Shown: positions 13,111 through 27,730 of the stretch, piece by piece
How positions within the stretch are numbered: position 1 is the stretch's first letter
Layout: every line of letters starts with the position of its first letter
Origin: Massilibacillus massiliensis
Lineage (GTDB): Bacteria > Bacillota > Negativicutes > FLKF01
Reading direction: 5' to 3'
NCBI RefSeq assembly: GCF_900086705.1
Contig: NZ_LT575483.1
Coordinates: 2,555,189-2,619,188 of the forward strand
DNA: 64,000 nucleotides
Notes under the pieces: model-generated
Database searches by the model: none
The model's input: only the letters and a program-made list of their open reading frames with translations
What the model was told of the DNA's origin: nothing
Made by a program: the position numbers and the translations under genes

Positions 13111-14111
13111 GTGGTTTATGTGGGTGGTAGGATTGTTTTGTTTGATCTGGTAGAAAAATTTTTATGAATAGCTAATTTAGGAGGGGATAGTGTGCTACTA
13201 AAAAAAGTAAGTATTAATAAATATAAAAGTTATTTGACTTCTCAAAGTTTTGAAGTTGAAAATGGAATAACGCGTATAGTCGGCAAAAATGAGTCTGGTA
13301 AAACAGCAATTCTTGAAGCGTTAGCGAAATTTAATTATTTTGAAGCTGATGAAGACTTTAAATATAATGAAACCTTGGACTATCCAAGAAATGAATTAAA
13401 GGCATATCAAAGAGAAGGTGCCTCTGCTGTTGTCGTAAGTTGTGAATTTCAAATAGATAAAGACTTAATTGATATTATACAAGAAGACTTGGGTCAGAAT
13501 ATCTTAAAAAATATGAGTTTTACAAAAGATATGAAATATGATGGCAGGGGAACTATTGTAGGTATTAATACGGATTTTTCTAATTTTACGAAACATATTG
13601 TTATAACATATAAGCCAAATGGAGATTTAGCAGCAGAAATTGAGCAATGTACTGACTTTGATTCATTAATCGAATATTGTTCACAACATCCAGAGGAACT
13701 AAAAACACTTAATGATAAACTAGGCGAGATTAGTAGTATTGTTCAGGAAAAATCGTGGAGTAATAAGCTGGACTGTTATGTATATTATAAATACATCTGC
13801 AATGAAATACCTAAATTTTGGTATTTTGATGAATATTATTCTATGCCATCAAGAATTGATATAAATTCGATAATAGAGAAAAATGCAAATAAGATTTTAA
13901 GTAAAGAAGAATATAGTACAATAACGGCGCTATTAGATCTAGCTAATCTAAATATTAATGAATTGTCAAATGAAAACAATTTTGAATCTTTTAAAGCGGA
14001 ACTGGAGGCTACTTCAAATGGTATTACAGACGAAATGTTTGAATACTGGTCAACAAATGATAATCTTGAAATAAGATTTGAAGTAGAGCATGAGTCAACA
14101 GGGAAGAAGTA

Positions 14112-14119
14112 TTTAAATA
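14112..14119. repeat. Target-site duplication, left
   Basis: TTTAAATA directly precedes the inverted-repeat end GGGAGTGT of the IS256 element and is repeated directly after its other end. Confidence 0.95.
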
Positions 14120-15480
14120 GGGAGTGTCAAGAATTTTGTGTAACAAGATTAAAAGTGTTGTTCATATTTTTGAAAAATCGGCTGAATCCTAGTATCAATT
14201 GAAAGTTGGTTTCGAACCATAGACCAATTGAGAACTGGGCGATCATGCCATTTTTTATAAAGTTCTGTAACTCGTAAATACAATACTTTCAGTATGGCGT
14301 TTTCATTTGGAAACGCTCCTTTTTTTGTCACTTTTCGGAAACTTGAATTCACGCTTTCTATGGCATTTGTTGTGTACATAATCTTTCGCACTGCACTACC
14401 GTAATTAAAAAGCTGCTCTATATGTGAGAAATTCCGTTCCCATACGCTAACGGCTCCAGGATAGTTTGCCCACGCCACTTTAAATCGCTCAAATTCCGCA
14501 ATTGCCGCTTTTAAACTTGAAGCTCCATATACTTTCTTTAACTGGGCTGTAAATCCCTTATAGTCCTTACTTGGAACATATTTTATAGAATTTCTTATTA
14601 AATGCACGATACATCTCTGTACATTTACGTCTTTAAATATTGCTTTAGCTCCATCTTCTAATCCGCTCAATCCATCCATACAGATGAATCCGATATCTTG
14701 TATTCCTCTAGCCTTGAGCTCATCGAAGATTTGCATCCAGGTATGCTTACTTTCATTTTCATTGATCCATAATCCTAAGATATCTTTATGACCATCCATG
14801 TTGTACCCAAGAATCGTATAAACTGCGCAACTCTTAACTTCATAATCTTTTCGAATTGTCACGTACATGCAGTCGACAAAAACAAATGGATAGAATGGAT
14901 TTAAGGGACGTTTTTGCCATTGATCGAGCTCTTCTAATATTTTATCTGTGATGATTGAAATTTGTTCATGAGATATTTCAAAACCATAGATATCTTCAAT
15001 CGTTGCGGCTATATCTCGTTGACTGAGTCCACGCGCATACATCGCTAAAACTTTTTGCTCAATGTCAGATACATTGGTTTTATGTTTGGGTATAATTTGT
15101 GGCTTAAAAGTCGCTTGACGATCACGCGGAACATCAATTGGAATAGAACCCAAAGAACTTTTAAGAGTTTTTTGTGAATACCCATTACGACGATTTGAGG
15201 ATTCTTTTTCACCACGATCATTACTTGAATAACCAAGATGGTGATCTAATTCACCTTTTAGCATTGCTTGGAACATCGGTCCGAAAATATCTTTTAAGGC
15301 ATTTTGCATATCTTCGACAGATTTTGGTTGATATTTTGCAATAATTTCTTGGGCAAGCTGTTCTTGTTCAGAGTTTTTTCTAGCCATTTTTTCGTCCTTT
15401 TCGTGTTTAATATTTTTTATTATCCAATATTAAAATAATCTGTGCAAGTTTTATACTTACACAGATTATTTTACACTCCC
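14120..15480 (-). mobile_element. IS256-family insertion sequence, complete copy
   Basis: 1361 bp. The ends are imperfect inverted repeats: GGGAGTGTCAAGAATT on the left and the complement of AATTATTTTACACTCCC-like sequence on the right, sharing GGGAGTGT and a nearby TGTGTAA. An 8-bp TTTAAATA duplication flanks it, the size expected for IS256. It encodes one transposase and inserted into an OLD-family nuclease gene. Its right 434 bases are identical to the partial copy at the left edge. Confidence 0.96.
14149..15387 (-). CDS. IS256-family (Mutator-type) transposase
   Basis: 412 residues, the normal length for the family. Catalytic landmarks of the DDE/Mutator class are present: FVDCMYVTIRKDYEVKS (first Asp), GFICMDGLSGLEDG (second Asp), VQRCIVHLIRNS (the C-x2-H signature) and the late TTNAIESVNSSFRK (Glu). 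It catalyses cut or copy movement of the element. Frame intact, so the element is potentially active. Confidence 0.97.
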   Translation of the reverse strand: MARKNSEQEQLAQEIIAKYQPKSVEDMQNALKDIFGPMFQAMLKGELDHHLGYSSNDRGEKESSNRRNGYSQKTLKSSLGSIPIDVPRDRQATFKPQIIPKHKTNVSDIEQKVLAMYARGLSQRDIAATIEDIYGFEISHEQISIITDKILEELDQWQKRPLNPFYPFVFVDCMYVTIRKDYEVKSCAVYTILGYNMDGHKDILGLWINENESKHTWMQIFDELKARGIQDIGFICMDGLSGLEDGAKAIFKDVNVQRCIVHLIRNSIKYVPSKDYKGFTAQLKKVYGASSLKAAIAEFERFKVAWANYPGAVSVWERNFSHIEQLFNYGSAVRKIMYTTNAIESVNSSFRKVTKKGAFPNENAILKVLYLRVTELYKKWHDRPVLNWSMVRNQLSIDTRIQPIFQKYEQHF

Positions 15481-15488
15481 TTTAAATA
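15481..15488. repeat. Target-site duplication, right
   Basis: TTTAAATA follows the right inverted-repeat end ACACTCCC, matching 14112-14119. Confidence 0.95.
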
Positions 15489-16605
15489 TACGCATTTATA
15501 ATAAAAAGCATAGGGTATCATTACCCCTTAAGAATCGTAGTAAGGGATTTATATGGTTCTTTTCTTTTTTGGTTTGGTTCAGCCGAATACAAGGTAAAAA
15601 GAGCTGTAGGTACATTCTTTTACTTGATGAGCCGGGATTAAGTCTTCATGCTGCTGCTCAATCGGATTTATTGAGATTTATTCAAGAAAAATTAGCACCA
15701 GATTATCAAGTAATTTATACAACTCATTCTCCATTTATGATTGACCCTAGAAAATTAAATGAAATTAGGACCGTATTTGATTCGCAGAATGTGAAAATAG
15801 GTAGTGTTATATCGGATGCAATTCAAGAAAAAGATCCAGCTACAATTTTTCCGTTACAAGCGGCTTTAGGCTATGATATAGCACAGAATCTTTTTATATC
15901 ATCAAAAAGTTTAATTGTTGAAGGTGTGTCAGATTTGATGTATTTAACTGCAATTTCAGAGGAATTGAAATTGCAAGGTAAAGTTGGATTAGATGAAGAT
16001 ATAACAATAGTTCCGGTTGGCGGAATGGATAAAGTAGCTACTTTTATTTCTTTGCTTAGAGGACAAAAGTTGTGTATAGGATGTTTATTAGATAATTTTA
16101 CGGATGCTAAAGGAAAGCAAAAAATTGATGATTTAATTCGAGATAAAATAATAAAAGAAAAGAATATAAGATATTTTGGCGAATTTGCTCAATTGTCTAC
16201 CGGTTATGCAGATTTAGAAGATATGTTTATGAAAACTGAGTATATAAATTTATTTAATAAGGCCTTTGCTAAAACTTATTCAGCAATCGATAATTCTAAT
16301 ATTGTTCTACAAGATAAACCTATACTTATGCAAATCAATAAAATTATTAAAAAAGATCGATTTAATCATTATCTACCTGCAAATGAATTTTTAAAAATAA
16401 TTGATAAGAAGAGTTGTCTTTCTGAAGATACTTTTAATAAATTCTCATTGATGTTTAGTGAACTCAATAAGTTATTTTAATTGATTGATTTTTAGATAGT
16501 TTTATAAGTGAAATCTAAAATTAAATGGTTTTTGCTGTGTTGTAAAAGAATCCATTATTATAACAAATAAATTTAAAGACAACTAAATATATATATGCAT
16601 CGGAC

Positions 16606-17298: not shown

Positions 17299-17661
17299 TT
17301 ATTTTTGTTTGGCATTCCAAAATATAATATCTAGAGTTGCCTTAAGTTTTGCTTTATCTTCGTTACTTAACGGAATGCCGTGCCAAAGAAGGTTTGGTTC
17401 ATTAAGAATTTTGTTGAGGTTTACAGGAGGTTTTTCTTTTGAAGAAAGTGACGATGATGTTATGTTAATGTCTCCTGCTAAGTAGTCTATGGTTACGTTG
17501 AAGAAGTTAGCAAGTTGTCGTATCGTTGCTAAGTCTGGTTCACGTTTATTTATTTCATATAAGGATAATCGAGATCTAGAAATATTAGTTAATTGTGCTA
17601 ATTCTTTTTGTGTTAATGAATTACGCTCCCGTAATTCAGACAATCGTTCGCCAAAAGACAT
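17299..17661 (-). CDS. XRE family transcriptional regulator
   Basis: 120 residues: HTH in the first 65 (LRERNSLTQKELAQLTNISRSRLSLYEINKREPD) and a C-terminal region containing NLLWHGIPLSNEDKAKLKATLDIIFWNAK, typical of Firmicutes phage- or toxin-linked repressors. GGAG stands before the ATG. It is divergent from the XRE gene at 17810; a strong inverted repeat between them is a candidate operator. Confidence 0.88.
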   Translation of the reverse strand: MSFGERLSELRERNSLTQKELAQLTNISRSRLSLYEINKREPDLATIRQLANFFNVTIDYLAGDINITSSSLSSKEKPPVNLNKILNEPNLLWHGIPLSNEDKAKLKATLDIIFWNAKQK

Positions 17662-17691
17662 ATAATCAACTCCTATACATAATTATATGTT

Positions 17692-17727
17692 ACATTTAGA
17701 AGCATTTAAATATTTGCTTCTAAATGT
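17692..17727. promoter_or_regulatory. Perfect inverted repeat, likely XRE operator
   Basis: 13-bp arms ACATTTAGAAGCA and its complement around a 10-base AT-rich centre, between two divergent XRE genes and 12 bases upstream of a consensus -35 box. Confidence 0.6.
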
Positions 17728-17738
17728 TGCTAAAAATA

Positions 17739-17767
17739 TTGACAGCTACAAAATGAAGCAATATAAT
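17739..17767 (+). promoter_or_regulatory. Consensus sigma-70-type promoter
   Basis: TTGACA and TATAAT separated by exactly 17 bp, upstream of the XRE gene at 17810. A perfect consensus usually means strong transcription held in check by a repressor. Confidence 0.8.
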
Positions 17768-17809
17768 AGGGGTATAGATAATTTATATTGTGATCGAGGG
17801 GGTGGTTGG

Positions 17810-18064
17810 ATGAGAGAAGAGTTAGTTTCCGTTCGGAGGTGTACGGGAAAGACACAAAGTGAGATGGCTAGAATGCTAGGAATATCACGAAGTTTTTATG
17901 GGTTAATTGAAAATGGCAGTAGGAATCCAGACTATGGATTAGCTAAACGAATAGCCAAAATTTTAAAAGTATCTCCAGATGCTATTTTTTTTGATCTCGA
18001 TGGCTTCGAAATGAAGCAAAAGACTAAAGAAAATGTGCATCCGAATTTTCTTTCAAGAAAGTAA
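17810..18064 (+). CDS. Small XRE regulator upstream of the PTS operon
   Basis: 84 residues, almost all helix-turn-helix (VRRCTGKTQSEMARMLGISRSFYGLIENGSRNPDYGLAKRIAKIL). I use ATG 17810, which follows the perfect promoter and a GAGGGGG ribosome site; the longer frame from 17687 runs through the promoter and is not plausible. It precedes the PTS genes by 170 bases containing an inverted repeat, so it may regulate them. A paralogous XRE-EIIA pairing occurs at 24081-25020. Confidence 0.85.
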   Translation: MREELVSVRRCTGKTQSEMARMLGISRSFYGLIENGSRNPDYGLAKRIAKILKVSPDAIFFDLDGFEMKQKTKENVHPNFLSRK

Positions 18065-18234: not shown

Positions 18235-18690
18235 GTGGATATTGCAGAGGTTTTAAATGAGAATTTAATAAATTTAAAACTGCAAGCAGGGACGAAAGTG
18301 GAGGCAATCGAGGAACTGATAGAGCTGTTATATCAAGAGGGAAAAGTTAGTGATTGCGATCTGTTTTTGAGGGATGTTTATGACCGTGAAGCAGAGGGGC
18401 GGACGGGGATTGGTAAGCATGTTGCTATACCACATGGCAAGTCGGATGCGGTGGCGAATACTTCAATTGTAATTGGTCGGACAATGCATGATTTAGTATG
18501 GGAATCTCTTGATGACAAGCCTGTTCATATCGTGATTTTGTTTGCGGTGCGGAAGGAAGATAAGACGAAACTACATTTGAGATTGTTGGCGCAGGTTGCG
18601 TGTGCTTTGGCAGATGAAGAAGTACTAAAGCGATTACTGATAACTGAGGATAAACAGGAAGTCATTGCTTTGTTGACAGGGGACGAATAG
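18235..18690 (+). CDS. PTS fructose-type EIIA component
   Basis: 151 residues of the PTS_EIIA_2 fold. GKHVAIPHGKS places the phosphorylated histidine at residue 67; the second conserved His is in KTKLHLRLLAQVA. It receives phosphate from HPr and passes it to EIIB. GTG start with AGGAGG upstream. First gene of a tight five-gene operon (EIIA, EIIB, EIIC, aldolase, sugar isomerase). Compare the 24556 paralogue, where the active His is lost. Confidence 0.93.
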   Translation: MDIAEVLNENLINLKLQAGTKVEAIEELIELLYQEGKVSDCDLFLRDVYDREAEGRTGIGKHVAIPHGKSDAVANTSIVIGRTMHDLVWESLDDKPVHIVILFAVRKEDKTKLHLRLLAQVACALADEEVLKRLLITEDKQEVIALLTGDE

Positions 18691-18708: not shown

Positions 18709-19029
18709 ATGAAAATTGTAGGAGTTGCGGCTTGTACAGCGGGAATTGCGCATACCTATATTGCCGCAGAAAAATTGAGAAAGGGTGCGCTGGCGAGGGG
18801 GCATGAGGTGCATGTTGAAACGCAAGGCACGATTGGCGTTGAAAATGAGCTTTCGCAAGCGCAAATTGATGCGGCGGATTTGGTGATTTTGGCAGTCGAT
18901 ATCAAGATAAACGGTGAAGAACGGTTTGCAGGAAAACGTATTGTTCGTGTGAAAACGGCGACTGTGATCAAGTCACCGGTGCAGTTTATGGAGAAAGTGG
19001 AAACAGAGCTTGCAAAGAATAAGAGCTAA
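18709..19029 (+). CDS. PTS fructose-type EIIB component
   Basis: 106 residues with the family N-terminus MKIVGVAACTAGIAHTYIAAE; Cys9 is the phosphorylation site. It accepts phosphate from EIIA and phosphorylates the sugar during transport by EIIC. It starts 18 bases after the EIIA gene, so the two are co-transcribed. Fructose class by sequence type; the actual sugar is unknown. Confidence 0.93.
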   Translation: MKIVGVAACTAGIAHTYIAAEKLRKGALARGHEVHVETQGTIGVENELSQAQIDAADLVILAVDIKINGEERFAGKRIVRVKTATVIKSPVQFMEKVETELAKNKS

Positions 19030-19049
19030 AGAGGATGAGGTGAAGAAAA

Positions 19050-20147
19050 GTGGCAGGACAAAGTAATGTGATTGGAACGATCAAAAAGCATGTACTGACA
19101 GGTGTTTCTTATATGCTTCCGTTGATTGTTGCCGCAGGGATTTGTATGGCATTGGGACAAGTGGCAGGCAGGTTAATGGGTGGCAATTTGATTGAGGTAG
19201 AGGGGTCGCTCCCTTATGTGCTCAATCAGATTGGGATTTATGGCTTGGCATATTTAATTGTACCTGTAATTTGTGCCTATATTGCTTTTTCTATTTCAGA
19301 TAGACCAGGGATTGCACCGGGACTTATTGTCGGATTTATTTGTACGCAAATTCATGCTGGGTTTATTGGTGGGATGGTAGGCGGATTTGTTGTTGGGTAT
19401 GTAGTCAATGGAATTAAGAGATATGTGAAGGTGCCTGTTGCGGCACAAGGCTTGATGCCAATTATGATTATTCCGGTATTATCGACGGTCATTGCCGGAC
19501 TTGGCATGTACTATATCATCGGTCAGCCGATTATATGGTTACAGAGTAGTTTAATTCACCTGCTTGAGAGTATGCAAAATGGTTCCAAGTTTGCTTTGGG
19601 GGCAATACTTGGGGTGATGGCGACGTTTGATTTTGGCGGGCCGGTGAATAAAACGATGTCGCTGTTTGTGGATGGGCTTTTAGTTGATGGTGTTTATGGG
19701 CCGGAGTCGGTGAAATTTGTGGGATCAATGATTCCGCCGTTTGGGATCGCGATCTCATATTTTTTGACGAAGAATAAATATACAAGGGCTGAGAAGGAAG
19801 CGCTGAAAGCGGCGTTTCCAATGGGAATCTGCATGATTACAGAAGGTGTGATTCCGATTGCGGCTAGGGATTTATTTCGGGTGGTGGCTTCTTGTGTTAC
19901 AGGTTCAGCGATCGCGGGCGGATTGCTGATGGTTTGGGGTGTGGAGTCACCCGTACCGCACGGCGGAATGTTTGTTGTGCCGTTATTTAAAGAACCATTG
20001 TTGTTCTGTGCGGCGCTTTTGCTTGGTTCGGTGATTTGTGGTGTGATGCTGTCATTTTTGAAGAAAAAAGTGACAGAATCGGATGAAGCTTTTGATGATG
20101 ATGCGGTTCAGGTAAAAGATGAGGAGATCAACTTTAGCTTGGAATAA
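19050..20147 (+). CDS. PTS fructose-type EIIC permease
   Basis: 365 residues with 8-10 hydrophobic membrane segments and the family features GVSYMLPLIVAAGICMALGQ, PGIAPGLIVGFICTQIHAGFIGGMVGGF, FDFGGPVNKTMSLFVDGLL and MITEGVIPIAARD. It forms the sugar channel in the cytoplasmic membrane. GTG start 20 bases after EIIB. Here A, B and C are separate polypeptides rather than one FruA chain. Confidence 0.93.
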   Translation: MAGQSNVIGTIKKHVLTGVSYMLPLIVAAGICMALGQVAGRLMGGNLIEVEGSLPYVLNQIGIYGLAYLIVPVICAYIAFSISDRPGIAPGLIVGFICTQIHAGFIGGMVGGFVVGYVVNGIKRYVKVPVAAQGLMPIMIIPVLSTVIAGLGMYYIIGQPIIWLQSSLIHLLESMQNGSKFALGAILGVMATFDFGGPVNKTMSLFVDGLLVDGVYGPESVKFVGSMIPPFGIAISYFLTKNKYTRAEKEALKAAFPMGICMITEGVIPIAARDLFRVVASCVTGSAIAGGLLMVWGVESPVPHGGMFVVPLFKEPLLFCAALLLGSVICGVMLSFLKKKVTESDEAFDDDAVQVKDEEINFSLE

Positions 20148-20191
20148 TATTGTGCAAATAAAAAATAGTGTAGAGAAGGAGTGTTTTGTTT

Positions 20192-21052
20192 ATGTTAGTG
20201 AAAATGTCAGAATTGTTAAGCGTTGCAAAAACAGAAAAGTTTGCAGTTGGTGCATTTAATGTATCGGATAGTTCATTACTGAGAGCAGTGACGGAGGAAG
20301 CTGAGGCTTCGAATTCTCCGGCGATCATTGCGATTCATCCTGATGAACTAAAATTTATTACGGATGCGTTTATGGCGTATGTCATCGAGAGAACAAAAAG
20401 CAGTACGATTCCTTTTGTGATTCACTTGGATCATGGTGGTTCTTTTGCTGATGTTATGCGGGCAATACACGTTGGTTTTAGCTCAGTGATGATTGATGGT
20501 TCACGACTTCCTTATCATGAGAATGTTCTGTTGACGAAAAAGGTTGTAGAAGCAGCGCATGCGGCAGGCGTTTGTGTTGAGGGGGAACTCGGAACGATCG
20601 GCAATACAGGAACCTCGATTGAGGGCGGTGTTAGCGAGATCACTTATACAGATCCTGACCAGGCAGAGGATTTTGTGAAAGTAACGGGTGTGGATTCTTT
20701 AGCGGTAGCGATTGGTACGGCACATGGCATTTATCCGAAAGATGTTACGCCAAAATTACAAATGCATATTTTACAGGCAATTACTGAAAAGATTGCTACG
20801 CCAATCGTATTACATGGTGGTTCAGCAAATCCAGATAAAGAGATTGCCGAGGCAGTTAAAATTGGTGTGCAGAAAGTCAATATTTCGAGTGATATGAAAT
20901 TTGCCTTTTACAAGAAAGCACGGGAAATCTTATCGGCGCAGGAATGCTGGGAACCAAATATGATATATCCGCAGTGTATTGACGCGGCTAGAGAAGTGAT
21001 TCGTTTTAAGATGAATTTATTTGGTTCCATCGGTATGGCGAACCGTTATTGA
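20192..21052 (+). CDS. Class II ketose-bisphosphate aldolase
   Basis: 286 residues of the FbaA/GatY/KbaY family. Zinc and catalytic landmarks: FVIHLDHGGS (Asp-His), GVCVEGELGTIG, the His in AIGTAHGIYP and the His in VLHGGSANP. It splits a ketose 1,6-bisphosphate into two trioses. Start ATG 20192 with AAGGAG ten bases upstream. Its place between PTS genes and an isomerase suggests it handles a phosphorylated dietary ketose, not central glycolysis; fructose and tagatose cannot be told apart by eye. Confidence 0.9.
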   Translation: MLVKMSELLSVAKTEKFAVGAFNVSDSSLLRAVTEEAEASNSPAIIAIHPDELKFITDAFMAYVIERTKSSTIPFVIHLDHGGSFADVMRAIHVGFSSVMIDGSRLPYHENVLLTKKVVEAAHAAGVCVEGELGTIGNTGTSIEGGVSEITYTDPDQAEDFVKVTGVDSLAVAIGTAHGIYPKDVTPKLQMHILQAITEKIATPIVLHGGSANPDKEIAEAVKIGVQKVNISSDMKFAFYKKAREILSAQECWEPNMIYPQCIDAAREVIRFKMNLFGSIGMANRY

Positions 21053-21065
21053 GGAGGAATAATGA

Positions 21066-21596
21066 ATGGCTGATATAAATTTGATATTGAGTGAAAAAGT
21101 CGAAGGATTATTTAAGAAAGCGCATATTGCTTTAACAGCGGAAGAAAGAGAACACTTAGAGTTTGTTGATTTTGGCTTTGGTGCAGGTAATGTTGATAAG
21201 GAAGGGCTGCAGCTCATCGTGTACTGTAATAATGAACGTTATTGTGCTAAGGAAATGGTGCTTTTGCCATATCAAACATGTCCAGAGCATCGGCATCCGC
21301 CAAAGAAAAACGATGCGGAGGGCAAGATGGAAACATTTCGTTGTCGTTATGGAAAAGTGTATCTTTATGTAGCAGGGGATGCCACAAAACATTTGTCGGC
21401 AGAAATTCCTGTGAAACATAAAAAATGGTATACAGTAAGGCACGAGATTGTTTTACATGCAGGACAGCAGTATACGATTCCACCCAATACACGCCACTGG
21501 TTTCAGGCAGGCAATAAAGGAGCCGTCATAAGCGAATTTTCTTCGCCGAGTGATGATGCATCGGATATTTTCACAAACCCCAACATACAGCGCTAA
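21066..21596 (+). CDS. Cupin sugar isomerase (D-lyxose isomerase-like)
   Basis: 176 residues of a single cupin domain. The metal ligands are visible: H-x-H in CPEHRHPPKK, the Glu in GKMETFRCRYG and the late His in IPPNTRHWFQAG. This pattern fits the D-lyxose ketol-isomerase family (aldose-ketose conversion). It begins 13 bases after the aldolase gene and ends the operon, just before a terminator. Exact substrate unproven. Confidence 0.82.
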   Translation: MADINLILSEKVEGLFKKAHIALTAEEREHLEFVDFGFGAGNVDKEGLQLIVYCNNERYCAKEMVLLPYQTCPEHRHPPKKNDAEGKMETFRCRYGKVYLYVAGDATKHLSAEIPVKHKKWYTVRHEIVLHAGQQYTIPPNTRHWFQAGNKGAVISEFSSPSDDASDIFTNPNIQR

Positions 21597-22717: not shown

Positions 22718-23008
22718 ATGACTGTTGAAAAACGCCCTCGTCGTAGCTATACGGACGAATTCAAAAAACAAGTTGTACAATTATATAATAACGGAAAACG
22801 TAAGTGTGACATTATTCGTGAATATGATATCGCATCGTCCTTGCTTGACAAATGGATTCAGCAAGCTAACAATAGTGGCTCTTTCAAGGAGAAAGATAAT
22901 CTTACAACTGAACAGATAGAACTGATTGAGCTTCGCAAACGGAACAAATATCTTGAAATGGAGAATGATATTTTAAAGCAAGCAGCGCTGATCTTAGGAC
23001 GAAAGTAA
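22718..23008 (+). CDS. IS3-family transposase OrfA
   Basis: 96 residues: a helix-turn-helix (RRSYTDEFKKQVVQLYNNGKRKCDIIREYDIASSLLDKWI region) followed by a leucine-zipper-like helix (IELIELRKRNKYLEMENDILKQAALIL), the standard OrfA plan. AAGGAG precedes the ATG. OrfB lies in the next frame, so a fused transposase by frameshift is likely in this family. Confidence 0.93.
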   Translation: MTVEKRPRRSYTDEFKKQVVQLYNNGKRKCDIIREYDIASSLLDKWIQQANNSGSFKEKDNLTTEQIELIELRKRNKYLEMENDILKQAALILGRK

Positions 23009-23010
23009 AT

Positions 23011-23844
23011 GTGATTAAAGCCAATATCCACAAATACTCTGTATCAGCAATGTGTAAAGTCCTACAAATTCCAAGAAGCACCTATTATTATGAGGCAAAA
23101 GCAAATCCAGATGAATCTAAGCTGGTGGCAAATATTGTTGATATATTTAAAGCAAGCCGAAATAATTATGGAACCCGAAAAATAAAATCAGATTTAAAAG
23201 ATAGAAATATCATTGCTTCACGCCGCCGCATCGGCAGAATCATGAGGCAGGAAGGACTGATTTCAAGTTATACGACTGCCCAGTTCCGTCCTCAAAAGGA
23301 TACTTGTAATGAATCAAAAACCAAAAATGTTGTTGACCGCCAGTTCAGTGAACAACCATATAGAAATGCTATTGTAAGCGATTTAACATATGTCAGAGTC
23401 GGCATGAGCTGGAACTACATTTGTGTGCTTATTGACCTCTTTAATAGAGAAATAATTGGTTACAGTGCCGGACGTAATAAAACAGCAGACCTTGTAAAAC
23501 AGGCATTTCAGACTGTAAGGGGAAATCTGAAAGATATCCAGATATTTCACACGGACCGTGGCAACGAATTTAAAAATCGGACCATTGAAGAAATCTTGGA
23601 AGCATTTGAAATTCAGCGTTCTCTCAGTCATAAAGGGTGTCCTTATGATAATGCAGTGGCAGAAGCAACATTTAAAATAATCAAAACAGAATTTATCAGG
23701 AACCAGACTTTTCACAGCTTAAACCATCTGCAGATTGAGTTAGCTGATTATGTAAATTGGTTCAACAATCATAGGATTCATTCTTCACTAGGATATCTAA
23801 CACCGGTGAAGTATAGAATAAATACCCTTAAAAAAGTTGTCTAA
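23011..23844 (+). CDS. IS3-family transposase OrfB (DDE integrase)
   Basis: 277 residues with an N-terminal HTH_21 region (MCKVLQIPRSTYYYEAK) and an rve integrase core whose catalytic triad is visible: Asp in IVSDLTYVRVG, Asp in IFHTDRGNEFKN and Glu in NAVAEATFKIIKTE. Starts at GTG two bases after the OrfA stop, in another frame. Intact. Confidence 0.93.
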   Translation: MIKANIHKYSVSAMCKVLQIPRSTYYYEAKANPDESKLVANIVDIFKASRNNYGTRKIKSDLKDRNIIASRRRIGRIMRQEGLISSYTTAQFRPQKDTCNESKTKNVVDRQFSEQPYRNAIVSDLTYVRVGMSWNYICVLIDLFNREIIGYSAGRNKTADLVKQAFQTVRGNLKDIQIFHTDRGNEFKNRTIEEILEAFEIQRSLSHKGCPYDNAVAEATFKIIKTEFIRNQTFHSLNHLQIELADYVNWFNNHRIHSSLGYLTPVKYRINTLKKVV

Positions 23845-24028
23845 AAAACTGTTGACAGTCCATAAAAAACCTCCTAAGTATATTCTATAGTAGGCCTGGT
23901 TATTTGTATATCCAGAAAGCTAATTTGATTTTATCAGGTAATGTAAAGTGGGTTCATGATAAAAAGACACTATCTAAGATGAGGTTGAGGACATTATTTT
24001 AAATCGTTCAATCATAAAATGAATCAAT

Positions 24029-24070
24029 ATAACAAAACCCTGTTACTTATAGGTAACAGGGTTTTGTTAT
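24029..24070. terminator. Hairpin terminator
   Basis: Perfect 18-bp stem (ATAACAAAACCCTGTTAC and complement), 6-base loop, ahead of the minus-strand XRE stop; works on either strand. Confidence 0.85.
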
Positions 24071-24080
24071 ATATACGATC

Positions 24081-24377
24081 TTATTTTATCCCATATTTAT
24101 AGAAAAGAAACTCTTTAAATAAAGCCAATTCTTTTTTTGCATCAATAGGAAGAGCTTCAATCTTATTGGTATTTGGGTCTTCATCTTCTGAAAAAAATTC
24201 TGCTAAAGTTATTCCTAAAGCATTACAAATTTTTTCTAAGGTAACAATATTAGGACTTTTTTGGCCAATTTCGATCTCTCGTAAAGTTGCCTGTCCTATT
24301 TCTGCAAGTTGAGAAAGCTTGTTTGTACTATAACCTTTTTCTGTTCTCAACTGGACGATTCGTTTAGCAATAATCAT
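24081..24377 (-). CDS. XRE family regulator next to EIIA-like gene
   Basis: 98 residues: HTH (LRTEKGYSTNKLSQLAEIGQATLREIEIGQKSPN) and a short acidic C-terminal tail ending FLFYKYGIK. GGAGGATATAATTT leads into the ATG. Divergent from the degenerate EIIA gene, with three similar 12-base boxes between. A decayed copy of the same protein type lies at 16663-16835. Confidence 0.9.
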   Translation of the reverse strand: MIIAKRIVQLRTEKGYSTNKLSQLAEIGQATLREIEIGQKSPNIVTLEKICNALGITLAEFFSEDEDPNTNKIEALPIDAKKELALFKEFLFYKYGIK

Positions 24378-24396
24378 AAATTATATCCTCCAATTT

Positions 24397-24478
24397 AACG
24401 CTAAAGCAATTATAACATTAAAAAACCGAGGAAAAATAACGTTTTAGCATTGAAGAATTAACGCGAAAGCATTATAAT
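24397..24478. promoter_or_regulatory. Operator boxes and promoter between XRE and EIIA-like genes
   Basis: Three related boxes: AACGCTAAAGCA at 24397, its inverted relative ACGTTTTAGCA at 24439, and AACGCGAAAGCA at 24460. For the plus strand, TTGAAG (24450-24455) and TATAAT (24473-24478) are 17 bp apart and the third box fills the spacer, so bound regulator would block the EIIA-like gene. Confidence 0.6.
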
Positions 24479-24555: not shown

Positions 24556-25020
24556 ATGAAGATTGAAGAAATTTTGAGTGAGAATCTGATTGAATTAAAT
24601 TTAAAAGCAAAGACAAAAGTGTCGGCGATAAGAGAATTAATAGAGTTACTCTATCAAGAAGGTATCATACATAATCCTGCATTATTTTTACAAGAGATTT
24701 ATGAACAGGCTGCAAAAGAGGGAACGATACTGGGGAATTGTATAGCGATACCGTATGGGCAATCTGAGACAGTAGCCGTTAGCTCGGTCGCAATTGGAAG
24801 AACAGAACAAGACATGATATGGGATTCCTTCGAGGATATGCCAGTCCGTATCGTACTTTTGGTTGCAGTAAAAAAAGAAGATAAAATGGATGTGCATTTG
24901 CGTTCGTTAAGACAGATCGCCTGCAGTGTGATGGGCAAAGAAATACAGGAGAAATTGCTGACAATCGAGGATGAAAAAGAGATGGTTACTGTGTTACAAG
25001 ACCTCTATGTTCGAGCATAG
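24556..25020 (+). CDS. EIIA-like protein lacking the active histidine
   Basis: 154 residues, clearly a paralogue of the 18235 EIIA along its whole length. At the active site the intact copy reads KHVAIPHGKS and this one NCIAIPYGQS: His67 is Tyr (codon 24754-24756), with His62 to Cys and Lys69 to Gln. The other conserved His (VHLRSLRQIA) is kept. It therefore should not carry phosphate. Frame and ribosome site are intact, so I treat it as a gene, perhaps regulatory, not as debris. Confidence 0.85.
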   Translation: MKIEEILSENLIELNLKAKTKVSAIRELIELLYQEGIIHNPALFLQEIYEQAAKEGTILGNCIAIPYGQSETVAVSSVAIGRTEQDMIWDSFEDMPVRIVLLVAVKKEDKMDVHLRSLRQIACSVMGKEIQEKLLTIEDEKEMVTVLQDLYVRA

Positions 25021-25166: not shown

Positions 25167-25748
25167 TTATAATTGGTCAATATCTATATGGTATTCAATT
25201 TTTTTTGCTACTTCTTTTGCCAAATCATTGCTAAATAGAATTTTGAGGAGGTAAAAACCTAATTCTAAACCAGAAGTAACACCGGCGGCGGTAATGATGT
25301 TATGATCTTGGACTACCTTTTTATCAGGGACTATCGTTACCGAATAGGCTGCCAGTTCTTCTAAAGCGGTGTGATAGGTCGTTGCTTGTTTTCCGTTGAG
25401 TAAACCTGCCGCAGCTAGGATAAACGCACCGGTACATACGGAAGTCATGTACTTGGCATGGGCAGCTTGCTTTAATACGAATTCTTTAATCTGGGGGTTG
25501 TGCATTGCTTCGAAGCGGCCTTTGCCTCCCGGAAGTACTAAGATATCTAAATCAGGGCAAGTGTCAAAAGAATACTCAGGAATAATTTTCATCCCATTAA
25601 AGGCTTGAACGATATCTAAATTTTCGGCGATAAGGAAAACTTGTGTACTGTCTGGCTGAATTTTATTGCTATAACTTAATACTTCAAAAGGACCTACAAA
25701 ATCCATTTCTTCAACTTGCGGAAAAATAAGAATGCCTATTTTGAACAT
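25167..25748 (-). CDS. DJ-1/PfpI family protein
   Basis: 193 residues of the class I glutamine-amidotransferase-like DJ-1/PfpI fold. The nucleophile elbow is YMTSVCTGAFILAAAGLL with its Cys near residue 104, preceded by ILVLPGGKGRF and followed by ATTYHTALEEL, the layout of isonitrile-hydratase-like and AraC-sensor-like members. The reaction cannot be told. GGAG before the ATG. Stands alone; gap 25749-26035 shows nothing recognisable. Confidence 0.85.
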   Translation of the reverse strand: MFKIGILIFPQVEEMDFVGPFEVLSYSNKIQPDSTQVFLIAENLDIVQAFNGMKIIPEYSFDTCPDLDILVLPGGKGRFEAMHNPQIKEFVLKQAAHAKYMTSVCTGAFILAAAGLLNGKQATTYHTALEELAAYSVTIVPDKKVVQDHNIITAAGVTSGLELGFYLLKILFSNDLAKEVAKKIEYHIDIDQL

Positions 25749-26035
25749 GACGATTCTCCTTTATGATATGTATATTTTTAATGTTATTTCGAGAAAACTT
25801 GATAGATTCCTTTGCCGATACAGTTGGCGTTAAAAAGTAATTGTTTCATTGCGTCATCATGGGAATCAGTAGATCAGCAGAAACTGTAAATCCTGTTATA
25901 GAAATATAAGTTTAGAAATAGGATGAATCTAGATGAATTAGGACTATATTCCTGTTTGTTATTTGTTTTACAGGATTTAAAAAATTTACCTTGAATATCA
26001 ATCATTTGTAATCATTGATATAAGGAGTGGAAGAA

Positions 26036-27730
26036 TTGAAATTACAATTAAAAACAAGTGTTGTTGTAGGCGTTATTACAGTAATCATAGCAGCATGCGG
26101 TGCAGCCTATGCCAATGGAGCAAATGAAAAACAACTAAGTGAAAAACCTGCTGTTAGTGCGGACGTCCCATTAAAGCAGACGACAAGTGAAGTGGAAAAA
26201 TCTACAGAAGATACTTACAGTAAGCGCGGTAAGTTAGTTATTCCGTTTGCTGAATTGCATAGATTGAGTTTATTTCAAGAAAAGGGACCTATTTTAGTCA
26301 AACAGAAACGACAATATGGTCTTTTTGATAAGAATGGAAAAACCATTTTGCCTGTGGAATTTCAGAATATTACAATTCGTAAAGGTGGTATGATTGAAGT
26401 TCTGAAAGACAAAAATCATGGGCTTTATAATCCAGATGGTGAATTGATTTTGCCAATAGCATTTGATGATGCTGTACCTGATAAAAATGATACGATTGTT
26501 GTGAAGCAAAAAAATAAATGGGGACTTTATGATATACGTGGAAATATAATTTTACCTATAGAATTTGATGAAATAAAAGGTATTTCTTCAGGTTTAATTG
26601 CCGCGAAAAAGGATAAGTTATGGAATTATTATGATTGGTCAGGAAAAATTGCGTTTGAAGGGGCGTTTGAGGAAGCTAGCGAATTTTCCGCAGGCATTGC
26701 ACTTGTAAAACGTGATCGTAAATGGGGTGCGATTGATACAGAGGGAAACGTTGTAATTCCTTATCAGTATAAAGAGATGGCTGGTTTTTCTGAAGGTTTG
26801 GCTGCGGTAAGAACGAAGGATAAGTGGGGATTTATCGACAAAACAGGAAAAATCGTGATTGAAGAAAAGTTTAGAGGCTATGAAGCTGGTTTCAAAGAGG
26901 GACTGGCAATTGTAAATGAAAAAAGTAAACATGATTATATCGACGTGAATGGAAATATTGTTTTTAGTGCACCGTATGATTTTGTGTTCCAATTTGAAGA
27001 TGGTCTTGCGGAAGTTCGCGTAGAAAAGAGCAGTTTTTCTTGGGGCGGGCTTATTAGTACAGCGATCTCAGCAAAATTTGGGGGATATTCGGATCCTTCA
27101 AACAATAACTTGGTAGAGTATAATCTTAAACGCGGTTTTATTGATAAAACTGGAGCACTAATTATTACAACAAAGTATGATTTAGTGAATGTATTCAAAG
27201 ATGATTTATCGAAGGTTATTGATCATGATAAAACAGGCTTTGTAAATCGTAAAGGTGAATTTGTGATTCCAGCAGAATATCAAAGTTTATCTGATTTTGA
27301 AAATGGTTTGGCAATGTTTGAAAAAGACGATAAATGGGGCTACATTGATAAAAAGAATCAGACTTTAACTACGAGAAAGTTTGATGGTGTAAAAACTTTT
27401 AGCTGCGATAGAGGTGCGGTTAAACTGGGTGAAAAATGGGGTTTTATCGATACTGCGGGCAATTTAGTCATCAGAGCTAAGTTTGATGAAGTTCAGCCGT
27501 TTATGAATGATATTGCTGCGATAAAATATAGTGATGCTTGGGGCATCATTGATTTAGAGGGTAATTATATAATTCCAGCGAAACCAGATTATGAAGAAAT
27601 GGCAGTACTCAATTCCGATCATATTGGTGTCAAAGTAAAGGGGAAATGGGGTATTATGAATAAGGATGGACACATGATCGTAGATCCTCAATACGATACG
27701 ATCAGTGCTCTTGTTTCTGAAAAGGAATAA
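26036..27730 (+). CDS. Secreted WG-repeat protein
   Basis: About 564 residues. An N-terminal signal sequence (MKLQLKTSVVVGVITVIIAACG; possible lipoprotein box IAAC) is followed by ten or more WG/KWG repeats of the form KWGxxDxxGNxVIPxxYDxxxxFxxGLA. Such beta-repeat proteins occur at cell surfaces; no activity is assigned. I use TTG 26036, eight bases after AAGGAG, over the GTG at 26027 that overlaps that site. Confidence 0.85.
   Translation: MKLQLKTSVVVGVITVIIAACGAAYANGANEKQLSEKPAVSADVPLKQTTSEVEKSTEDTYSKRGKLVIPFAELHRLSLFQEKGPILVKQKRQYGLFDKNGKTILPVEFQNITIRKGGMIEVLKDKNHGLYNPDGELILPIAFDDAVPDKNDTIVVKQKNKWGLYDIRGNIILPIEFDEIKGISSGLIAAKKDKLWNYYDWSGKIAFEGAFEEASEFSAGIALVKRDRKWGAIDTEGNVVIPYQYKEMAGFSEGLAAVRTKDKWGFIDKTGKIVIEEKFRGYEAGFKEGLAIVNEKSKHDYIDVNGNIVFSAPYDFVFQFEDGLAEVRVEKSSFSWGGLISTAISAKFGGYSDPSNNNLVEYNLKRGFIDKTGALIITTKYDLVNVFKDDLSKVIDHDKTGFVNRKGEFVIPAEYQSLSDFENGLAMFEKDDKWGYIDKKNQTLTTRKFDGVKTFSCDRGAVKLGEKWGFIDTAGNLVIRAKFDEVQPFMNDIAAIKYSDAWGIIDLEGNYIIPAKPDYEEMAVLNSDHIGVKVKGKWGIMNKDGHMIVDPQYDTISALVSEKE

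Follow-up and report, generated by a model that had tools for sequence, protein, structure and literature searches.

An EIIA-like protein with tyrosine at the phosphorylation site, encoded beside a divergent XRE regulator in Massilibacillus massiliensis

The window analysed here, a stretch of 64,000 nucleotides of the Massilibacillus massiliensis contig NZ_LT575483.1, encodes an EIIA-like protein of 154 amino acids in which the phosphorylated histidine is replaced by tyrosine (EIIA-Y; 24556..25020, + strand). The reading that we prefer, with a probability of about 0.5, is that EIIA-Y is a former transport subunit whose transporter has been lost, that it no longer relays phosphate and that it has been kept as a binding protein under the control of an XRE-family regulator. 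EIIB and EIIC would have been lost beside it and the EIIA gene retained; the product, in effect an EIIA locked in its 'unphosphorylated' form, would then work by binding other proteins. The protein encoded by the divergent XRE gene would bind three putative operator boxes between the two genes and, as a repressor, would set the dose of EIIA-Y. At the level of sequence this reading is supported by the loss of the His and other active-site residues from an intact fold and frame, by parallel His-to-Tyr changes beside XRE genes, by selection on Tyr-bearing orthologues in the genus g5 and by conserved operators.

The EIIA-Y protein and its active site

EIIA-Y matches the PF00359 (PTS_EIIA_2) profile with 92.5 bits against a cut-off of 27 and its reading frame is intact, in agreement with the first-pass annotation, which had described an EIIA paralogue with Tyr for His67 and a preserved frame beside an XRE regulator. 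The codon for Tyr67 (24754..24756, +) is TAT, where that of the normal His67 paralogue in the window (18235..18690, +; 50% identical) is CAT, and the active-site stretch reads N-C62-IAIP-Y67-GQS in EIIA-Y and K-H62-VAIP-H67-GKS in the paralogue. The change of His62 to Cys had also been singled out, but position 62 is H, G, R, F or Y across the EIIA family and its variability means that this change carries little weight. More telling, and absent from the earlier account, are R51Q, E52A, G55E, G58I and K69Q, all at positions where the subfamily is at least 90% conserved. In a reference set of 20 His-bearing relatives there are 62 such positions, 40 of which are retained in EIIA-Y; its non-conservative losses (the five just named and H67Y) gather round the active site, and three further losses, T111M, T112D and L117S, adjoin the second conserved histidine, H114, which is present.

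R51 is presumably the active-site Arg, as in EIIA-Mtl and PtsN. Because both the phosphorylated His and this Arg are lost, EIIA-Y is predicted to be unable to relay phosphate in the normal way, and here the earlier proposal follows from the residues themselves. No phosphorylatable active-site histidine is present, the required pairing of a conserved Arg with a second His is reduced to H114 with Gln at position 51, and no cognate EIIB or EIIC gene lies within 1.4 kb of the EIIA-Y gene. An AlphaFold2 model has a confident EIIA fold (pLDDT 86.7, pTM 0.85), the closest PDB structure being that of IIA-Ntr (2a0j, TM 0.83). EIIA-Y is a member of the EIIA fold family that falls outside both the phosphocarriers and PtsN.

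Such a protein might instead be a decoy, occupying HPr or EIIB (for example the EIIB of the neighbouring His operon) and so damping phosphotransfer. The identity of 50% to the paralogue is in keeping with this, as is the retention of the rest of the motif in early-stage Tyr copies such as that of genome G035. However, R51, E52, G55, G58 and K69 have been lost from EIIA-Y just where docking of HPr or EIIB would be expected, and a decoy role seems to us improbable.

Surroundings of the gene in the window

The His paralogue is followed by genes for its partners EIIB and EIIC, a class II aldolase and a lyxose-isomerase-like protein (18709..21596, +), and is preceded by a divergent pair of XRE genes (17299-17661, -; 17687-18064, +). 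The promoter region of the first of these (17655-17800) contains the palindrome TTTAGAAGC...GCTTCTAAA, and a similar palindrome lies beside an 86%-identical XRE gene in genome G001 (L087 5865-6150), giving a second conserved XRE operator. An IS3-type transposase of two open reading frames (22718-23844) separates the His operon from the XRE/EIIA-Y pair. Elsewhere in the window, an AAA ATPase / OLD-like TOPRIM gene (13192-16480) is apparently interrupted by a transposase gene of the Mutator (IS256-type) family (14149-15387), which leaves an N-terminal part (13192-14202) and a C-terminal part (15569-16480), and a DJ-1/PfpI protein (25167-25748) is the neighbour of a 567-amino-acid protein with 11 WG beta repeats (26027-27730). 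An Rfam search of the window gave no match.

Tyrosine at the phosphorylation site in related EIIA domains

EIIA_2 matches number 32 in the host genome, which is many for 4.0 Mb. Among the 31 distinct sequences recovered from their loci the phosphorylation site is His in 30 and Tyr in EIIA-Y alone. A survey of 159 distinct EIIA_2 domains, mostly standalone and including a few that may be truncated copies, found His in 152, Tyr in 7 and no other residue. The Tyr copies are EIIA-Y, one copy in G001 and, in genus g5, an 'a' copy (G023, G055, G065) and a 'b' copy (G035, G070). The tree of these domains requires four independent changes between His and Tyr; branches with strong support make two of these unavoidable, and EIIA-Y stands at the end of a long terminal branch (0.81).

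Where a standalone EIIA is XRE-linked and has no EIIB/EIIC of this type in the surrounding 1.4 kb, the residue is Tyr in all five cases. XRE-linked copies with EIIB/EIIC comprise seven with His and one with Tyr, and every XRE-linked His copy is accompanied by EIIB/EIIC, one more His entry (L133) having been left out of the count as a truncated duplicate. Where a standalone EIIA lacks both XRE and EIIB/EIIC nearby, the residue is always His (Tyr in 0 of 30), with the qualifications that some of these 30 may have EIIB types missed by the search and that all of the neighbour counts are phylogenetically non-independent.

His-to-Tyr requires a single C-to-T transition, and the probability of obtaining Tyr in four of four independent losses of His lies between 0.0002 and 0.03 according to the mutation model; a preference for Tyr at the vacated site is therefore a hint and no more. 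The presence of Tyr in all seven non-His copies might also mean that regulation acts on Tyr67 itself, for instance through a tyrosine kinase, but a mutational preference for Tyr explains much of the pattern and we consider this very improbable. Searches of the open-licence literature turned up no PF00359 EIIA described as having Tyr in place of the phosphorylated His.

An orthologue of EIIA-Y was not found in the compared genomes, the nearest of which share only the class with the host, none being of the same genus or family. The best match in other genomes was 49% identical, and such matches are orthologues of the His paralogue. A wider scan of contigs yielded one relative only, at 33%, a plasmid search only distant EIIAs of up to 38%, and a loose Tyr-motif pattern run over 398 genomes of the phylum nine matches, the sole EIIA among them being the host's own. 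Beyond the host and genus g5, class-wide matches to the Tyr motif (L078, L084-L086) proved not to be EIIAs.

Loci with Tyr copies in genus g5 and G001

Within genus g5 the locus of G023 runs XRE pair, EIIAa (Tyr), EIIAb (His), EIIB and EIIC, and that of G055 has the same EII genes with no XRE gene detected. G065 has EIIAa (Tyr) only, without EIIB/EIIC, G035 and G070 have EIIAb only, now with Tyr, and G004 has one His copy with EIIB and EIIC. Comparison of these loci indicates that EIIAb bears His where EIIB/EIIC accompany it (G023, G055) and Tyr where they do not (G035, G070), and in two species (G023, G055) a Tyr copy is retained inside an otherwise complete PTS operon. The XRE pair of G070 is only distantly related to that of G035, and with the absence of an XRE gene in G055 this means that the EIIA is retained as its regulator is exchanged. 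In G055, where the XRE pair is missing ahead of EIIAa (L090 9519-10260), there is a short divergent open reading frame that looks ribbon-helix-helix-like by eye, with repeated GCCGTCA sites, an apparent instance of such exchange at one locus.

The Tyr copy of G001 is 69% identical to the His paralogue in the window and adjoins an XRE gene 86% identical to that at 17299, in a locus without counterparts of XRE 17687, EIIB, EIIC, aldolase and isomerase. From its gene content this locus resembles the His operon in a reduced form. The Tyr copy there has also lost the Pro and Gly of the motif (IRYC) and is fast evolving, so that by its sequence it looks to be undergoing decay.

The recurrence of the same His-to-Tyr change about four times in related bacteria suggests that a spare transport part has been turned into a regulator. 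There may even be a recurrent route in this class, in which an XRE-repressed PTS operon loses EIIB/EIIC, the EIIA is kept and its His becomes Tyr, giving a dedicated non-phosphorylatable regulator in a two-gene XRE/pseudo-EIIA switch, but we put this forward tentatively, with the odds somewhat against it.

Selection or decay

The main rival explanation is that EIIA-Y is a remnant: once the genes for the transporter had gone, constraint on the phosphorylation site was relaxed, CAT to TAT was the easiest change and the protein now does little. Each of the four origins of Tyr is located within an eroded PTS operon or close to one, the G001 copy looks damaged and has a longer branch, and if mutation is strongly biased towards AT, obtaining Tyr in all of four changes (about 0.03) would not be very unlikely. 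The Tyr orthologues of g5 nevertheless have dN/dS values of 0.18 for G035/G070 at a dS of 0.31, and of 0.19 (G023/G065), 0.18 (G055/G065) and 0.23 (G023/G055) at dS up to 0.96, compared with 0.10 to 0.27 for His copies, the difference between dN and dS having p below 1e-7. These orthologues are under purifying selection as strong as that on the His copies, and Tyr itself has been kept, as TAT, TAC and TAT, at dS near 1. In these two sets of g5 orthologues, where the conservation and selection proposed earlier as a check could be followed, genes are neither disrupted nor freely variable at the site.

The persistence of a Tyr copy beside a His copy in the complete operons of G023 and G055 also argues against a remnant, as does the retention of His in all 30 of the other standalone EIIAs that have no EIIB/EIIC nearby. 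For EIIA-Y itself the comparison of dN with dS against the His paralogue is saturated, but its frame is intact at 50% divergence, and in simulated neutral drift of the paralogue to 50% identity, with indels not counted, the frame remained free of stops in only 0.75% of walks. This implies selection over most of the divergence of EIIA-Y, though not necessarily after the loss of His, as part of that divergence may predate it. We regard the remnant explanation as rather unlikely.

The divergent XRE gene and the shared promoter region

The XRE gene divergent from EIIA-Y (24081..24377, -) encodes a regulator of 98 amino acids that is 69-71% identical to the products of XRE genes in three other genomes, and a terminator-like hairpin (24027..24072, -) closes its transcript. 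Three TAACGnnnnAGCA boxes lie between the two genes with start-to-start spacings of 41 and 22, namely TAACGCTAAAGCA (24396..24408, +), TAACGTTTTAGCA (24437..24449, +) and TAACGCGAAAGCA (24459..24471, +). The third falls within the spacer of a promoter-like TTGAAG-17-TATAAT ahead of EIIA-Y (24450..24478, +). Boxes of identical layout recur beside the XRE orthologues of G023, G043 and G065 (L136, L137 and L138), where the promoter is conserved as TTGACT-17-TACAAT and drives a second small XRE gene. A scan of the host genome with the extended box pattern, no mismatch being allowed, gave four occurrences, three of them at the EIIA-Y promoter, which is the sole cluster. A possible leftover of a small XRE gene between the promoter and EIIA-Y has a shuffle p of only 0.02-0.03 and is not claimed.

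These DNA sequences are strong evidence that the divergent XRE protein would control transcription of EIIA-Y, and the predicted position of the third box between -35 and -10 suggests that it probably represses. We infer that the XRE protein binds and represses at this promoter and that EIIA-Y is made. The boxes are not evidence that the XRE protein and EIIA-Y bind each other. It could still be that EIIA-Y is the dedicated partner of the XRE repressor, as co-repressor or anti-repressor in a two-gene feedback switch, given the divergent arrangement of the pair and operator boxes in its shared promoter region that are clustered nowhere else, and given that EIIA-Ntr binds transcription factors regardless of phosphorylation (PMC6456747). 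EIIA-Ntr binds PhoP and blocks its binding to DNA, and its H73A form binds and regulates PhoP like the wild type (PMC6456747). Against such a partnership, the same XRE family also adjoins many unrelated genes, and the regulator is different in G070 and absent in G055, which makes a fixed EIIA-XRE pairing doubtful; we consider it unlikely. The proposal of the first-pass annotation that EIIA-Y may be a regulator is thus borne out in part, by the conservation of Tyr in g5 orthologues under purifying selection, by Tyr at all seven non-His sites and by the link in DNA to the XRE gene through shared operators, while the more specific idea that it regulates the XRE protein is weakened by the exchange or absence of that protein at sister loci.

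A retained, XRE-controlled binding protein, the reading we favour, would by analogy with EIIA-Ntr work through a partner, be it the XRE protein, HPr/EIIB or another target. If this is correct, an EIIA that is held unphosphorylated would have arisen some four times, in each case with Tyr; it would be a non-phosphorylatable mutant made by nature, comparable within the PTS to a pseudokinase. Such a protein would allow us to ask what the EIIA fold does without phosphotransfer, and whether Tyr is preferred.

Comparison with known systems

Regulation through binding is known for dephospho-EIIA proteins, where the phosphorylation state is the signal. With the fructose-type PTS EIIAs (PF00359; TIGR00848) EIIA-Y shares the fold, the length, most of the conserved core residues and H114, and it is half identical to a normal member in the same window; it differs in having Tyr for the phosphorylated His, in the loss of active-site Arg and Gly and in having no EIIB/EIIC partner, and its TIGR00848 score of 79.9 is below the curated cut-off of 103.5. 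PtsN (EIIA-Ntr) is of the same fold (TM 0.83 to 2a0j) and is likewise a standalone EIIA, regulating through protein binding and partly without phosphorylation (PMC6456747). However, PtsN keeps its own His, whereas EIIA-Y has neither the His nor a PTS-Ntr context, and the PtsN equivalog scores of EIIA-Y, 33-35 bits, lie below the cut-offs of 139 and 221. As with XRE (Cro/CI-type) regulators divergent from their targets, a divergent gene is found here with repeated boxes overlapping the target promoter, but the direct target is an EIIA gene, whereas the promoter next to the XRE orthologues serves a second, small XRE gene.
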